Assembly (NCBI GenBank): GCA_028693235.1
Contig: JAQUVW010000004.1
Location: 62,001-126,000, forward strand
Length of the DNA stretch: 64,000 bases
Direction of reading: 5' to 3'
Origin: Candidatus Gastranaerophilales bacterium
GTDB taxonomy: Bacteria > Cyanobacteriota > Vampirovibrionia > Gastranaerophilales > Gastranaerophilaceae
The translations under genes were made by a program, and so were the position numbers. The notes beneath the pieces were generated by a model. That model was not told the DNA's origin and did no database searches. It saw only the letters and a program-made list of their open reading frames with translations. Positions 47,553-54,270 of this stretch are shown piece after piece (the first letter of the stretch is position 1; each line of letters begins with the position of its first letter).

Positions 47553-47960
47553 ATGTACACAATAAAAGAAGTATCAGAAAAAACGGGAATATCTGAACAT
47601 ACACTCAGATTTTGGGCAAAAAATGAGCTATTTCCAGAAATATCAAGAAATAAAAATAATATCAGAATGTTTAACGAAAACGATTTGGCATGGGTAAAAA
47701 TGGTTAATTGCCTTCGGAGCGTTGGGACAGAAATAAAAGAAGTAAAAAAATACATTGATTTGTGTCTTGAAGGTGATTCAACTATAAAAGAACGTTTTGA
47801 AATAATAAAAAATACAAAAACTAACGCCATAAAAAAAATGGAAGAATTAAAAAATCAACTTGAACTTTTAGACTATAAAGAAAATTATTATAAAAATCTT
47901 ATAAACAACCACCTCCAAGATGAGTGGAATCCGGCAAACCAACTTACAAAATGCAATTAA
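47553..47960 (+). CDS. MerR family transcriptional regulator
   Basis: The 135-residue protein begins MYTIKEVSEKTGISEHTLRF, the MerR helix-turn-helix start, followed by the wing (NKNNIRMFNENDLAWVKMVN) and a dimerising coiled coil (about residues 75-120). The C terminus is short and has one Cys, with no clear metal site. A strong AAGGGGGG ribosome-binding site precedes the ATG. It is divergent from the DXS-like gene with a 19-bp-spacer promoter between them, so it most likely activates that operon on binding an unknown ligand. Confidence 0.9.
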   Translation: MYTIKEVSEKTGISEHTLRFWAKNELFPEISRNKNNIRMFNENDLAWVKMVNCLRSVGTEIKEVKKYIDLCLEGDSTIKERFEIIKNTKTNAIKKMEELKNQLELLDYKENYYKNLINNHLQDEWNPANQLTKCN

Positions 47961-48054: not shown

Positions 48055-48333
48055 ATGAATATTATTGGACTTATCTCCGTTTTACTTATAATAGCTTTAG
48101 TTTGTTTTTTGTTCCTCTTTTTTAGGAAAGAGAAATATATTAAAACTTGTGCCACCTTTTTGACAATCATAGCCGTAATCGGAACAGGCATGATTATTTG
48201 TGAAAAACCTAAACTTCACGCTCCTGTTTCAATGAGTGTTATTGATTATTTAATAAAATTTAATGATGATGGTTCTGTTATTACAACTAAAAAAACTACT
48301 CGTACAAACTATAAAAATAAGGAGATGAAATAA
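48055..48333 (+). CDS. Uncharacterised small membrane protein (92 aa)
   Basis: ATG at 48055 has GAAGGGTGG upstream; an upstream frame from 48037 exists but lacks a site. The 92-residue protein has two hydrophobic segments (IIGLISVLLIIALVCFLFLF and a second near residues 30-48), then a short polar tail ending KNKEMK. I recognise no family. Its stop shares bases (TAATG) with the start of the next gene, so they are translationally coupled; it is the first gene of the 48-53 kb cluster. Confidence 0.6.
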   Translation: MNIIGLISVLLIIALVCFLFLFFRKEKYIKTCATFLTIIAVIGTGMIICEKPKLHAPVSMSVIDYLIKFNDDGSVITTKKTTRTNYKNKEMK

Positions 48334-49376
48334 TGAAAAAATTCATTTGTTTATTTCTATGTTTTTTTTATTTTGCTTCGTCAAATATTTGTTTTGCGGA
48401 CTCTACGCATCTTTATTTTGTTAAAAATACCAATAAAAGCCTGCTTAAACCTTATGTTGAACAATCCTATTTGAAAGAAAAATATGACTTAACAAAAACA
48501 GATCCTTATTATGGTGTTTTAAAAACTGATAATTCAAATTCTGCATTAATAATTTTGCAAACTACAGGTTCGAATGTGTTTTATTTCTATAAATCAACCT
48601 CTAACAATAGACTTGATAAAGCAATATTAAAAATGCTAAAAACAAACAATATTGTTTATGAAGAATCGTTTAATACTAATTATATAAATTTGTTTGAAAC
48701 TCAATCAAATAAAATCTTGTCAAACAACGGAACCGATTTATATAGTTTTGACTCAACAACAACAAAATATCAAGCTCCCGCAAAAAAAAGTCAAACCAGC
48801 CAATCAACTGCATTAAAGGGGTATATAGGGAAAGTAGTTTCGGGCACTACTTTTAAAACATATTTACAAACGCCAATAAACACATCTACTGCCTCAAAAG
48901 GAGATGTCGTAACCGCTGTTTTGTCAGAAGATTGGAGCTACAATGGAAATATTATAGCACCACAAGGAAGCTTAGTTTCTGGCATTTTGACCAACGCTAG
49001 ACATGCTTCAGTTGGTTCTTTTAACGGTAAAGCGATTATTGATTTCAATAAAATTACAACACCAGATAATAAGATTTATTATATTTCTACTGAACCGATT
49101 GATTTTTCCGTCACAAATGAGGGAAAAATTGCAAAGTCTACAAAATCTGTAATAACCGCAGCTGCAGTTGGTGCGGTTGTCGGATTACTAGCTGCTGCTT
49201 GTTTTAGCGGTAGTGGCTCCAATCTGGGGAAAGCTGCTGCACTTGGTGCCGCTAGCGGTGCCGGCATTAGCTTGGTTTCTTCGGTTGCCGAAAAAGGTGT
49301 TGATGCGGAAATTCCTGTTTATACGGATTTGGAATTGAAATTAATAAAACCATTGAATGTAATGTTAAAATATTAA
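48333..49376 (+). CDS. Exported protein with possible VirB10/TrbI-like C-terminal domain
   Basis: The 347-residue protein has a signal peptide (FICLFLCFFYFASSNICFA). The first half has no recognised domain. The second half (GDVVTAVLSEDW, IIAPQGSLVSGILTN, and KAIIDFNKITTPDNKIYYI) loosely follows the order of blocks in VirB10/TrbI proteins. A hydrophobic Gly/Ala-rich stretch follows (AAAVGAVVGLLAAACF and AAALGAASGAGISLV). It ends EIPVYTDLELKLIKPL. The match to TrbI is weak and may be wrong. It is the second gene of an apparent operon of envelope proteins. Confidence 0.45.
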   Translation: MKKFICLFLCFFYFASSNICFADSTHLYFVKNTNKSLLKPYVEQSYLKEKYDLTKTDPYYGVLKTDNSNSALIILQTTGSNVFYFYKSTSNNRLDKAILKMLKTNNIVYEESFNTNYINLFETQSNKILSNNGTDLYSFDSTTTKYQAPAKKSQTSQSTALKGYIGKVVSGTTFKTYLQTPINTSTASKGDVVTAVLSEDWSYNGNIIAPQGSLVSGILTNARHASVGSFNGKAIIDFNKITTPDNKIYYISTEPIDFSVTNEGKIAKSTKSVITAAAVGAVVGLLAAACFSGSGSNLGKAAALGAASGAGISLVSSVAEKGVDAEIPVYTDLELKLIKPLNVMLKY

Positions 49377-49388
49377 GGATTAAAATTT

Positions 49389-50057
49389 ATGAATAAAAGA
49401 TTAATAATTATCGGAATTATAATATTAGCAATATCAATAATAGGGAAATTGTTATTTGTTCTTTCAAAAAATATTAAGGTAGATGATTTTCATAAATCAG
49501 CGATTATTTTTGTCGTTGATTCATCAGCATCTAACCAAAAAATGTTACCAAAACAAATAAAATATTTAAAATCATTTTGTTCTATTCTTGACCCAGAAGA
49601 TGAAATAAAAATCTTAAACGTTTCGCAAAAAGCATATTTAATATTTGAAGGTTCCCCAAGTGATTCTTCAGGAATATCAAAAGCCGTAAATACATTTACT
49701 AAATATGATGAAAACAATTACGGAACAGCTTATGGCGAAGGGCTTAAAAAAGCATTTTCACATTCTTTAACAATGAAGAAAGAAGGATATGTTCCAGCAA
49801 TAGTCGTAATCGGCGATTTGGCTAATGAAGGAGATACTTCAACTCAAATTAATTGGGATACTTTGCCGTCTAATGTTGAAAACGTCAAGAAATATGCACC
49901 TGACTTAGCTATGATGTTTGTTTTTGCTCATCCTGAAAAACTTGATTTTGTCAAAACAAAACTGGCACCTGTTTTAGGTGAAAAAAGACTCATCATTGCA
50001 ACCGAGCAAAATTCAACAAAAGCTCAACGTAAATTTTTAGAAGCAATTGGAAGATAG
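49389..50057 (+). CDS. Membrane-anchored von Willebrand factor A-like protein
   Basis: The 222-residue protein has one N-terminal TM (LIIIGIIILAISIIGKLLFV) followed by a VWA-like fold. IIFVVDSSASNQ is a DxSxS-type metal site, and TAYGEGLKKAFSHS and PAIVVIGDLANEGD cover the expected Thr and Asp positions. VWA domains bind Mg and partner proteins. No enzymatic motif is present. It lies 12 bp after the previous gene and 14 bp before the 8-TM protein gene, so the proteins likely work together in the membrane. Confidence 0.7.
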   Translation: MNKRLIIIGIIILAISIIGKLLFVLSKNIKVDDFHKSAIIFVVDSSASNQKMLPKQIKYLKSFCSILDPEDEIKILNVSQKAYLIFEGSPSDSSGISKAVNTFTKYDENNYGTAYGEGLKKAFSHSLTMKKEGYVPAIVVIGDLANEGDTSTQINWDTLPSNVENVKKYAPDLAMMFVFAHPEKLDFVKTKLAPVLGEKRLIIATEQNSTKAQRKFLEAIGR

Positions 50058-50071
50058 GAGTTTCTTAAATA

Positions 50072-51670
50072 ATGGCATTTACAATAATTTCAAAAAATAA
50101 AGAAAAAACATTTTCAGATAAAGAATTAGTCAATATTTGTTCAAAAGATGGTTTCGATTTCAAACTTGATGTCGATTTCGACTTTATGTTGGCTGTCCAA
50201 TATGATTTAAAAACTAATAAATGTATTCTGTTGAATCAATTTAACAACGAGAAATTTTTATTCAAAGGAAAGCCTCTGCCTGCTCGACTTGAAGTTGAAA
50301 AAATATGCAAAATTATGATTGCAGATTCAGATGAGTTTATTACTATAAAAATGATTGGGACTTCCTCTAATGTTGAGCTAAAAGAGGATAATCTTACCGA
50401 AAATGATTTAAAAGATTTATATGGCGATGAAGTAAATGCAAATATTCGATTAAAAATTGAAAAAAGAAAAAGTGAAATTGAGCAAGCAAGAATTTCTATA
50501 ATAAATCAGGTATCCCATACAATTAATGATTTACAACATAAATTGTCAATGAATTCAAAAGGGGGAATTGTTTTACATATTGCATTACTACTAGCTTCTC
50601 TGATTTGCTCTTTTGGAGTTTCAAATTATTTAATGGGACTACCTTTAGCTCAATCTTCAAATGTAATTCAAATGCCTACAAATTTAAAATTAATATTTGT
50701 TTTTGCTTTTGTTTTATATGGGCTTGGACTAATTATGAAACAAGGTATTTTCCTCTATTTACAAAACAAGTCAAATATTGACAGTGATACATCAATAATT
50801 GCTGAAAAATTTATGATTGTTATGTCCTCAGTCTTTTATGTTGCAATTTATCTCATAAATGTTTTGTATTATTTGACGCCAAAAACAATACCTGTTTTCG
50901 CAGTTCTAATCTCGTTGTTATTCACTTCAATTGCAATGACACTTGCAATTGCTTGCGGGTATTTTAAACATAATAACGTTGAATTATCAAAGGAACTTAA
51001 TAAATTTGAATATAGAGAAGATTTTGAAAAAGTAGTAAAAGAATATCAAAATTGGATTGAAAGATTTGCCAATAACATGAGTTTGACAAAAATAAGGAAC
51101 ATAAAAGATAAATTATTTATGTTGCAGTTAAAATCAATCGGAGAAATAATTTTAGGTATTTTGACCGCTCCGTTTTTGGCGTATGGGGTTTCTAATACCC
51201 TAGCAATGTGCTTCCCTGAAGCTGCAGGCTGGATAAGAATATCAGGGCTACGTTTTAGTCCGGTATTTTTGGTATTAGCAACTGTAATGATTGTCTTTGC
51301 ATTTTTTGCTTTTGTTAATGCTTTTACTTGTAATCGTAAAATTCAGGCTTCGAATGTTTTAAAAACCGACGGATTTAGTAATTTTATTAACCACGGGGTA
51401 GAAATATTCGGATTACAAGGAGTCAGAAAACTTAATTCTGAAATGAGACAATCTTTTCTTATTGGAATTGCAATTATCGGAATAGAATTTACAATGAATA
51501 TCTCATATTTTATGCAAGAAATGGGTGGAGATTTGGGCGGAATGCTGTTGAGCGTATTGGCGGCACTTGTTCCTACTGCTATCTTGATTGCGGAAACATA
51601 TATGTTAAGTGCAACCAAATTTGAATCCTTCGTTTGTGATGGATTAATATCAAAAATAGATAAAGATTAA
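50072..51670 (+). CDS. Uncharacterised 8-TM membrane protein with soluble N-terminal domain
   Basis: The 532-residue protein has a soluble N-terminal region of about 125 residues with beta-strand character (FHA-like in pattern but not convincingly so), a coiled coil around residues 130-160, and eight predicted TM segments near 168-188, 205-226, 245-268, 272-296, 358-385, 395-420, 468-488 and 493-517. A cytoplasmic loop of about 60 residues separates TM4 and TM5. I recognise no family: it is not ExbB/TolQ-like in layout. GGAG lies before the ATG, and its stop shares bases with the next ATG (TAATG). Confidence 0.6.
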   Translation: MAFTIISKNKEKTFSDKELVNICSKDGFDFKLDVDFDFMLAVQYDLKTNKCILLNQFNNEKFLFKGKPLPARLEVEKICKIMIADSDEFITIKMIGTSSNVELKEDNLTENDLKDLYGDEVNANIRLKIEKRKSEIEQARISIINQVSHTINDLQHKLSMNSKGGIVLHIALLLASLICSFGVSNYLMGLPLAQSSNVIQMPTNLKLIFVFAFVLYGLGLIMKQGIFLYLQNKSNIDSDTSIIAEKFMIVMSSVFYVAIYLINVLYYLTPKTIPVFAVLISLLFTSIAMTLAIACGYFKHNNVELSKELNKFEYREDFEKVVKEYQNWIERFANNMSLTKIRNIKDKLFMLQLKSIGEIILGILTAPFLAYGVSNTLAMCFPEAAGWIRISGLRFSPVFLVLATVMIVFAFFAFVNAFTCNRKIQASNVLKTDGFSNFINHGVEIFGLQGVRKLNSEMRQSFLIGIAIIGIEFTMNISYFMQEMGGDLGGMLLSVLAALVPTAILIAETYMLSATKFESFVCDGLISKIDKD

Positions 51671-52413
51671 TGTTTTATAATTTATTTTTTAAAATTTTAA
51701 TAGCTCTAATTATATTTATTACACTCTTAATTTGTGGGATTAAGCCACATCTTCATACAAAAATATTGGTTTATGATTCAAATTTTGAACAAGTCCAAAA
51801 TGATGACTCTTCACAAAAATCCGATTTGCAAAATGTGCAAACCAAAAATCTAACTTTGTCAAAAAGTTTGCCCCAAAAAACAGACAACTACATATCGGAA
51901 GTTAAAAGAAATAAAGCATTACCTCAAATTACAAAACAAGATTCGAAACAACATCTACAAAGAACTTCAACAATAAAAGACAATACGGTTCAACAAATTA
52001 AAAAGCCTGCTTCTTCCATAAAAATGCAACCTGCAAAATCCAAAAAAACTCTAGAATCGCTGGCAAAACAAGAAGAAATCGCTTGGAATGTATGGCGATC
52101 AAATATACAAAATCAAATAATGAATGATGCCTCTATTGGCGGGGTTCCAAACGGTACTGTTTTTAAATTTAGCTTTGTTGTAGATAGATATGGTAAGGTT
52201 TCTAATGTTAAAACTTGGTCTTTAAATCCCACTTATACACCTCTTGCAATTCAGTATATAGCACCTGTTATAAGAGGTTATCAAGGACATTCTATTCTAG
52301 ATTTCCCAAGGTCGTCAAATCGCATTACAACAACAGTTGATGGCGGATTTAAAGTTTCTCAAGTTGCAAAATATAGTAAACCTAGTGATTATAATGATAT
52401 AGAAAAAAAGTGA
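51670..52413 (+). CDS. TonB-like protein (N-terminal TM, Lys/Gln/Ser linker, TonB-C-like domain)
   Basis: The 247-residue protein has one TM (about 5-25), a long Lys/Gln/Ser/Pro-rich linker (residues about 35-135) and a C-terminal domain of about 90 residues: WNVWRSNIQNQIMNDAS, then FKFSFVVDRYGKVSNVKTWS, matching the strand order of the TonB C-terminal fold. TonB proteins carry energy from inner to outer membrane, but no ExbB/ExbD or TonB-dependent receptor is in the window. It follows the 8-TM gene with a start overlapping its stop. Confidence 0.65.
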   Translation: MFYNLFFKILIALIIFITLLICGIKPHLHTKILVYDSNFEQVQNDDSSQKSDLQNVQTKNLTLSKSLPQKTDNYISEVKRNKALPQITKQDSKQHLQRTSTIKDNTVQQIKKPASSIKMQPAKSKKTLESLAKQEEIAWNVWRSNIQNQIMNDASIGGVPNGTVFKFSFVVDRYGKVSNVKTWSLNPTYTPLAIQYIAPVIRGYQGHSILDFPRSSNRITTTVDGGFKVSQVAKYSKPSDYNDIEKK

Positions 52414-52420
52414 GGACACA

Positions 52421-53278
52421 ATGTTTAGGTGTAAAGAATGTGGCTTTGATTATGATATCAAACCTGATTATTGCGAATGTGGTAATGATGAATTTGATGA
52501 AATTATAGAAAACAAATCCATAAATTCGAATTTAGATAATAAAAAAGAACCACATATATATAAAACTAAAAACGACGCCACAAAAAAGAATAAAATTCAT
52601 ATTCCATCTGTTTGTATTTTTATGTTTTGCTTACTTTTATCAGCTTTTGTTCTTCTTTTTGCTTGGAATCCCAAAGCTGTTAATACTTCTTCTATAAAAA
52701 ATACAAAAGTTGAAAATAATCAAAACATTCCCAACATTGATAAAATATGGAATTCATCTACTCCAAGCAAAATGCCTGAAAAGCAAGAAAAGGAACCCTC
52801 AATTAAACAACAAATAGAAGAAAAACCTATTGAGATAATTCAACAAACAAAAGAACAAAATATTAATAAAACGATAGCTAATAAGCAAAATAAAATGCCT
52901 AAACAGCAAGTCAAAACGCAAAAAATCATACAAACACCTGTTCAAATAAAAGCCAAACCGGTTTCAACATCAAAAATAAATAAGCAAGAACTTAATTATT
53001 ACAAGTATTCTTTAAGAAATAAAATTGCATCAAAAATTGATTTTACAAACATTTTAGGAGACGGGACTTGTGTTGTATCATTTACCCTTTCTAAAGCAGG
53101 GGCATTGCAAAACAGAAGATTTACTCTTCAATCTGACAATGGAATGTTGAATGATGCTGTTTATGAAGCTGTATTAGCAGTTCCAACATATACTTCTCCT
53201 CCATCTGCCTATAACAATGAAGTTCTAAATTTTACCGTAAAATTTTATAATGGAAATTTTGAAATTACATTAATTTAA
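52421..53278 (+). CDS. Zinc-ribbon/TonB-C-like membrane protein
   Basis: The 285-residue protein starts with a zinc ribbon (FRCKECGFDYDIKPDYCECG, C-x2-C and C-x-C). A TM follows (VCIFMFCLLLSAFVLLFAW, residues about 63-82), then a long Lys/Gln/Pro-rich linker and a TonB-C-like domain (YYKYSLRNKIASKIDFTN, CVVSFTLSKAGALQNRRF). A cytoplasmic zinc ribbon joined to a periplasmic TonB-type domain is unusual. It is the second TonB-like gene of the cluster, 7 bp after the first. Its stop overlaps the convergent VWA gene by 4 bp. Confidence 0.65.
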   Translation: MFRCKECGFDYDIKPDYCECGNDEFDEIIENKSINSNLDNKKEPHIYKTKNDATKKNKIHIPSVCIFMFCLLLSAFVLLFAWNPKAVNTSSIKNTKVENNQNIPNIDKIWNSSTPSKMPEKQEKEPSIKQQIEEKPIEIIQQTKEQNINKTIANKQNKMPKQQVKTQKIIQTPVQIKAKPVSTSKINKQELNYYKYSLRNKIASKIDFTNILGDGTCVVSFTLSKAGALQNRRFTLQSDNGMLNDAVYEAVLAVPTYTSPPSAYNNEVLNFTVKFYNGNFEITLI

Positions 53279-54171
53279 TCTTTATAAAATTCATATTGAG
53301 TCTTATTTTGAGGCGATTGTTTTATTTGCCCCGGTTGAGAGGTTATAGCTTGGGTCAATACAGATTGTAGATTAGACAAGTTGTTTATGTTATAGACTTT
53401 GCCCCCTGTAGTAGAAGCTAAACAAGCCAATCCTTCATCATTGTCTGAAGAAACAAGAATTATATCCACATGAACATCTGAACGTTGTTTTATGAGGTTT
53501 TTAGCAAATGCACAAGGATCGCCTCCACAATTTTCACCGCCATCAGTAATTAAAATAACCTTTTTGGGGGTGGTTTTATCTAAATATGCAAAATCTTGAT
53601 TTATAGCTCTATCAAGACCGTAGACCATTGGTGTTGAGGTTCCAATCCTCACTGAATTCATACCCGCAATTAACGAGTTAGCATTCGCCGTTGTTATTGA
53701 TGCTACTTGTTCTGTTGCAGAACAAGCACCAGATGCTCTTCCTGCTGGATTACAATTTGCAATAACTTTGTATTTTTTATTTTCTTTTTTTATAGATTTA
53801 ATTGTTCCTAAAAGACGGGTAGAATTTGAGGTATTTTGGCTTTGCCCGAATACTCTTAATCCAACCCTTGTGGTTTGAGGTATTTGGGCGATTATGTAGG
53901 ACATAATTGATTTTGTTTTTTCAATACAATTGGACATACTTCCAGAATAGTCCATAACTAAATTAACAATTTGAACTTGAGCTACTTGTTTTGTAGCATT
54001 ATATGTTTGTGGGGTATAAACATTATATGGATTCATATTCGTTTGTGTTTGTATAATTTTCCCATTCGTTTTAATGACCCCGGAAGTGTTAATTTTGTAC
54101 TTTGCGGCATGACAAGCTCCGACCGAGAAAATTATTAACAGAAAAGTTATACTAAATATTCGCTTAATCAT
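53275..54171 (-). CDS. Exported von Willebrand factor A domain protein
   Basis: Start ATG at 54171 (MIKRIFSITFLLIIFSVGAC) is supported by AAAAGGATTTTT; an upstream ATG at 54198 lacks a site. The 298-residue protein has a signal peptide, possibly of lipoprotein type (VGAC box), then a VWA domain with an intact MIDAS: LVMDYSGSMSNC (DxSxS), a Thr in GTSTPMVYGLDRAI, and LITDGGENCGGDPC. Repeated Cys pairs (NC...CF, CNP...CS) suggest disulfides. It resembles calcium-activated channel/TerD-unrelated secreted VWA proteins of bacteria with unknown partners. It is convergent with the TonB-like gene and may belong to the same system. Confidence 0.75.
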   Translation of the reverse strand: MIKRIFSITFLLIIFSVGACHAAKYKINTSGVIKTNGKIIQTQTNMNPYNVYTPQTYNATKQVAQVQIVNLVMDYSGSMSNCIEKTKSIMSYIIAQIPQTTRVGLRVFGQSQNTSNSTRLLGTIKSIKKENKKYKVIANCNPAGRASGACSATEQVASITTANANSLIAGMNSVRIGTSTPMVYGLDRAINQDFAYLDKTTPKKVILITDGGENCGGDPCAFAKNLIKQRSDVHVDIILVSSDNDEGLACLASTTGGKVYNINNLSNLQSVLTQAITSQPGQIKQSPQNKTQYEFYKD

Positions 54172-54270
54172 AAAAATCCTTTTTGTAAATTGTACCATAT
54201 TTCAAATATTCAATACTATGAATTTCGCAAATATCAATAAGATTTTTTATTAAAATTATTATTAAAAATA

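Follow-up and report, generated by a model that had tools for sequence, protein, structure and literature searches.

The TonB- and TolA-type rods known to us run on a single motor family (ExbB/TolQ), and FHA and VWA domains, both of which occur in the locus described below, are typical protein-binding modules. In E. coli TonB and TolA, a Ser-x3-His motif contacts ExbB or TolQ, and its histidine is essential (PMC12215075). Here, the gene set, gene order, co-inheritance and domain content of a block of seven genes (A to G) were analyzed in the window (the whole stretch of DNA under study, 64,000 nucleotides). The hosts of this block are gut bacteria of a family related to cyanobacteria, and their envelope biology is almost untouched. 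A sequence-only reading had proposed an undescribed trans-envelope machine, and had named two grounds for giving it up, namely scattering of the genes in relatives and an evident correspondence with an established conjugation, TonB or Tol-Pal set; the gene order was found to recur across loci, and no such match appeared. An undescribed, co-conserved trans-envelope gene set was supported; an FHA domain in D had been overlooked, and ExbBD and TonB_2 genes are encoded elsewhere in the genome. No published description of the gene set was found in a literature search that missed most subscription journals.

Layout of the block

The tightly spaced six genes on the plus strand and the convergent seventh that had been read from the sequence alone were confirmed as open reading frames A to F (+) and G (-). 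Their features are as follows (positions in the window):

48055-48333, +, gene A, small membrane protein whose TM segment precedes a juxtamembrane element of the PxMHK type; optional
48208-48222, +, PxMHK-type motif of A (residues 52-56), PKLHA in the window copy; P52 and H55 invariant in the alignment
48333-49376, +, gene B, exported protein with a TrbI/VirB10-like region (PF03743 matches of its relatives) and a Gly-zipper; optional
49134-49268, +, Gly-zipper-like stretch of B (about residues 268-312); PF13441 in 6 of 14 relatives, weak TagQ match
49389-50057, +, gene C, N-terminal TM anchor and VWA domain (PF13519) with a near-complete MIDAS
50072-51670, +, gene D, FHA-like domain and 8-TM membrane domain, core of the block
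50072-50359, +, FHA-like domain of D (residues 1-96, from Foldseek), phosphothreonine site apparently degenerate
51131-51610, +, TM5-TM8 of D (residues 354-513), its most conserved part by column conservation
51670-52413, +, gene E, TM segment with a PxMHK-type element, long linker, weakly TonB-like C-domain
52421-53278, +, gene F, putatively cytoplasmic zinc ribbon, TM segment, long linker, TonB_2 C-domain (PF13103)
53275-54198, -, gene G, exported VWA protein with an intact MIDAS and conserved cysteines; optional, convergent with F

Adjacent genes share 1 bp (A/B and D/E) or are separated by 12 bp (B-C), 14 bp (C-D) and 7 bp (E-F), and the convergent F and G overlap by 4 bp. Among the seven products, convincing Pfam matches were obtained for C, F and G only; D, E and the window copies of A and B fell into no convincing family of Pfam, NCBIfam, PHROGs or PADLOC, and no defence-system model matched any of the seven. 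Promoter-like sites across the block did not exceed the level of shuffled sequences, and the Rfam search returned two tRNAs 3' of the block and nothing else. A MerR-type regulator gene (NmlR-like, 47553-47960) lies directly upstream of A in the window, a position that is not kept in relatives; the DXS neighbour is likewise not conserved at their loci.

Conservation and distribution of the gene set

GTDB species genomes were scanned with D, which yielded 22 loci whose gene order was then mapped by tblastn; the organisms named among them are Gastranaerophilales or Melainabacteria assemblies. Most of the 22 loci carry A-B-C-D-E-F followed by a convergent G, with differing flanks, and the best-conserved products are D and C, at 54-77% and 59-82% identity, whereas the linkers of E and F are variable. 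Samples of the order, the class and the phylum contained D in 99/146, 138/289 and 128/386 genomes, respectively; among the matches listed, all but one fall in a single family of Gastranaerophilales. Outside that family, the class and phylum samples gave no D with a 67-row profile, save in one incomplete genome (G020, 66% complete) of another family of the order, the near-identical block of which (L046) may reflect transfer or mis-binning. Neither the 72,556 plasmids nor the 50,697 phage records searched contained a match to D, and a plasmid or phage origin of the block was rejected on these grounds.

Further loci with remote paralogues were added, and 79 D genes were mapped with profile HMMs. 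A VWA gene (C or G) lies ≤ 6 kb from D in all 79 loci, C is found ≤ 150 bp upstream of D in 69 and E or F ≤ 150 bp downstream in 77, and the combination of a VWA gene, D and E/F is present in 78. C is missing from 9-10 loci, and A, B and G from many. The main architectures are C-D-E (23 loci), A-B-C-D-E-F-G (18), C-D-F (10) and B-D-E-F-G without C (9, of which seven have G-type genes divergently upstream, mostly two). These counts point to a conserved core of a VWA protein, D and one TonB-like protein, with A, B, G and one of E/F being optional; the seven-gene unit originally read does occur (18/79), but is one architecture only. Some genomes carry two locus types, which are nearly in tandem in one case (L035). 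That the gene order recurs in numerous independent loci whose flanks differ is far beyond chance, and the joint conservation in many Gastranaerophilales genomes that the sequence-only reading had asked for was borne out by these 79 loci. Tree distances of C and D are correlated (Mantel r 0.83, with permutations reaching 0.21 at most) and the two trees share three identical deep splits, which indicates that the two genes travel as a pair; they diverged through the same duplications.

Several loci show additional features. In L050 (12001-19001), C-D is followed by four E-like proteins, interleaved with TPR and WG-repeat proteins; three of the four lack the PxMHK element and some are apparently exported. 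Minimal C-D-F loci (L034, L049, L052, L054-L059) are always preceded by two genes, the one immediately before C-D-F in L034 being TrkH-like (potassium uptake), and the pair having a constant size in the other loci. An ORF of 285 aa is inserted on the opposite strand between C and D in L037, and one of 314 aa between E and F in L010.

Domains of the products and a candidate inner-membrane base

The AlphaFold2 model of D (67 sequences, pLDDT 83, pTM 0.66), which replaced a first one built from 18 rows (pLDDT 54), agrees in its helices with the eight TM segments and soluble N-domain recognized beforehand. The FHA-like identity of this N-domain had been missed and emerged from Foldseek: residues 1-96 form a beta sandwich (best match 6ccd, E 5.8e-4, TMt 0.75), with a probability of 1.00 against many FHA structures. 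At the position of the FHA IGR motif, all family members shown have, by eye, I-G/C/S-T/S/N, and one member weakly matches Yop-YscD_cpl (0.022). The phosphothreonine-binding residues (Arg/Ser) appear to be missing, and the domain therefore probably docks a protein without phosphate. In genus g6, the D-type FHA-like N-domain also stands alone as a 99-aa protein (L038:10386-10685, L039:9021-9320, L051:9798-10097), adjoining an efflux locus of the TolC/EmrA type that also has a MarR-type regulator.

For the 8-TM domain, the PDB, Pfam and viral structures offer no relative, and the model bears no structural likeness to ExbB/TolQ/MotA; judged against Pfam, NCBIfam, PHROGs, PADLOC and the PDB, D represents a new family of membrane proteins. 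Column conservation is highest in the TM5-6 loop (0.89), TM5 (0.80) and TM8 (0.78), compared with about 0.5 in TM1-4, and E358, E472, N476, T502, E508 and T509 of TM5-8 are invariant or nearly so. The FHA-like domain would be cytoplasmic and the TM5-6 loop periplasmic. An internal 4+4 TM duplication, suspected by eye from GVSNYL/GVSNTL, was not supported (hhalign 0.7%, score 16.7 vs. 14.0 for reversed controls).

Both VWA proteins kept the character first read for them, C as a TM-anchored protein (PF13519, VWA_2, 6.3e-7; MIDAS kept in 16-17 of 17 rows at each of its five positions) and G as an exported one with an intact MIDAS (PF00092, 7.9e-10; 15 of 15 rows). PDB profile searches with A2 (C), A3 and A4 returned nothing useful.

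Two TonB-type C-domains had been claimed. That of F stands: it is a TonB_2 domain in Pfam (PF13103, 2e-6, above the cut-off) and matches the C-domain of ExbB-linked TonB_2 proteins (hhalign 96%, E 4e-9, 95 columns), while that of E matches the latter weakly (38%). C4, C7, C18 and C20 of the zinc ribbon of F are invariant in the alignment. A and E have a TM-PxMHK element in common (profile match 94%), suggesting that they dock on the same partner; a likeness of the juxtamembrane part of E to that of ExbB-linked TonB_2 was rejected (profile match 6.6%). The SxxxH motif occurs in the TM helix of 1 of 50 E and 0 of 40 F proteins vs. 16 of 17 ExbB-type TonB_2 proteins, hence E and F probably dock on something other than ExbB.

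For B, a TrbI-like identity is suggested at the level of the family, since 6 of 14 relatives match PF03743 (TrbI, best 3.6e-10, in the C-terminal region and covering part of the family model), but the window copy has no Pfam match. Some relatives also match conjugative TraM, a profile-profile comparison with cyanobacterial TrbI gave 1.6%, and the Gly-zipper stretch reached 21.9 bits against TagQ (cut-off 300). Judged by sequence, B is a putative member of a remote TrbI/VirB10-like family. These TrbI and TraM matches would fit a machine for conjugation or type IV secretion in which B serves as the VirB10/TrbI subunit, a reading that we nevertheless regard as extremely unlikely: the block encodes no secretion ATPase (as had been noted), coupling protein or relaxase among its seven products, the neighbouring genes differ between loci, D is without a match in the plasmid and phage records, and B is absent from minimal loci and also occurs beside ExbBD.

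The absence of ExbB and ExbD, correctly read for the block, does not extend to the genome, in which MotA/ExbB-type genes occur at three sites and two ExbD genes lie side by side. On contig 1 (L118:2970-7275), ExbD-ExbD-ExbB-TonB_2 (393 aa) is followed by two exported TrbI-like Gly-zipper proteins, of which the one next to TonB_2 (L118:5862-6623) is a clear B homologue (E 1e-39, with 33% identity across 191 columns) and the second a weaker one. A long TonB_2 protein and a B-like gene are paired in 17 genomes, with ExbB beside the pair in L118 and L121, the two loci that were read to a sufficient distance. On sequence grounds, B and F are homologous to parts of this locus, and the B homologue adjoining ExbB, ExbD and TonB_2 ties the block to TonB-type systems. 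An outer membrane is present, as indicated by four Omp85 proteins here and by the LPS genes reported for Melainabacteria (PMC3787301). The TonB receptor missing from the block is missing from the whole genome as well (no PF00593).

With these genes at hand, E and F might be additional TonB proteins powered by the chromosomal ExbB-ExbD, leaving D and C another role, e.g., that of a transporter whose outer step E/F assist. The ExbB gene, the two ExbD genes and the true TonB_2 C-domain of F are compatible with this, yet it is made distinctly improbable by the missing SxxxH contact motif for ExbB, by the adjacency of E/F genes to D in 77/79 loci and by the lack of a TonB receptor in the genome.

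The parallel between ExbB+ExbD+TonB_2+B-like and D+C+E/F+B loci suggests D and C as the counterpart of ExbB and ExbD. Our preferred reading, plausible though short of probable, is a TonB/Tol-like trans-envelope device in which D (cytoplasmic FHA-like domain and eight TM segments) and the membrane-anchored, periplasmic C would form the inner-membrane base in place of ExbB-ExbD or TolQ-TolR. E, F and the short A would be single-TM proteins docked on this base; the long linkers of E/F would cross the periplasm, and their C-domains would engage a partner at either the outer membrane or the cell wall, with B (TrbI-like, Gly-zipper) and the exported G as likely outer-side partners. The FHA-like domain of D and the zinc ribbon of F would offer cytoplasmic docking or control surfaces. 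We infer from this that the proteins adopt the topology and contacts described and assemble into one complex. The reading is supported by the core present in 78/79 loci and the agreeing C and D trees, by the TonB_2 matches of F in Pfam and to ExbB-linked proteins, by the B homologue beside the genome's own ExbD-ExbD-ExbB-TonB_2 and its pairing in 17 genomes, by the absence of SxxxH from E/F together with the invariant Glu/Asn/Thr in TM5-8 of D, and by the outer membrane. It is weakened by the weakly TonB-like C-domain of E (38%), by the loci that lack A, B or G (many) or C (9-10), by the D membrane domain without a structural match to ExbB/TolQ/MotA and by the genome without a TonB-dependent receptor.

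The main rival is a passive scaffold or sensor, in which D, C and E/F would tether the inner membrane to either the cell wall or the outer membrane, with no force generated and the FHA-like domain reporting the envelope state. We consider it possible, if rather doubtful: the same gene data fit, FHA and VWA domains suit such binding roles, and minimal C-D-E/F loci need no outer partner, but the buried polar residues of TM5-8 in D are more strongly conserved than would seem necessary for a tether. Under the D-C base reading, these residues may couple the device to ion flow and force may be generated. An inner-membrane motor made up of D and C that is unrelated, arose independently and drives TonB-like rods by ion flow is unlikely; if true, it would add a further trans-envelope force transducer beside the ExbB/TolQ/MotA superfamily.

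Comparison with known systems

As in TonB-ExbB-ExbD, the block combines single-TM proteins with long linkers and a TonB_2-type C-domain (F) with a multi-TM partner (D) and a putative single-TM periplasmic partner (C), and a B-family protein also adjoins the genome's own ExbBD-TonB_2 genes. Unlike it, the block has no ExbB/ExbD among its seven products (Pfam), D is unrelated in sequence and fold as tested, E/F lack the SxxxH motif, the genome has no TonB receptor, and FHA, VWA and zinc-ribbon domains are added. The general plan of Tol-Pal (TolQ-TolR-TolA), an inner-membrane base with a rod across the periplasm, is recognizable, but the seven products include no TolQ/TolR homologue and, by Pfam, no TolB or Pal, and E/F lack the SHLS motif. 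Some relatives of B resemble VirB10/TrbI of type IV secretion in the C-terminal region, but B comes without the rest of the machine and, in the window copy, without a TrbI match. Since the block lacks several of the hallmarks of TonB-ExbBD and of type IV secretion that were looked for, it is filed in neither; any likeness to a TonB-type device would at most be one of function.

FHA-bearing membrane proteins (YscD-type, Rv1747) likewise have a cytoplasmic N-terminal FHA fold, whereas the 8-TM domain of D matches no solved structure and its phosphothreonine-binding Arg is apparently missing. The T6SS threonine-phosphorylation module (PpkA/Fha/TagQ) also brings FHA-like and VWA domains together, and B has its weak TagQ match, but neither a kinase nor a T6SS core gene lies in the block. 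The outcome is a defined three-gene core with named residues open to testing, and a family-wide gene set that would place TonB-like rods on an unrelated 8-TM FHA base, suggestive of another base fulfilling the same task or else of a new type of envelope sensor.
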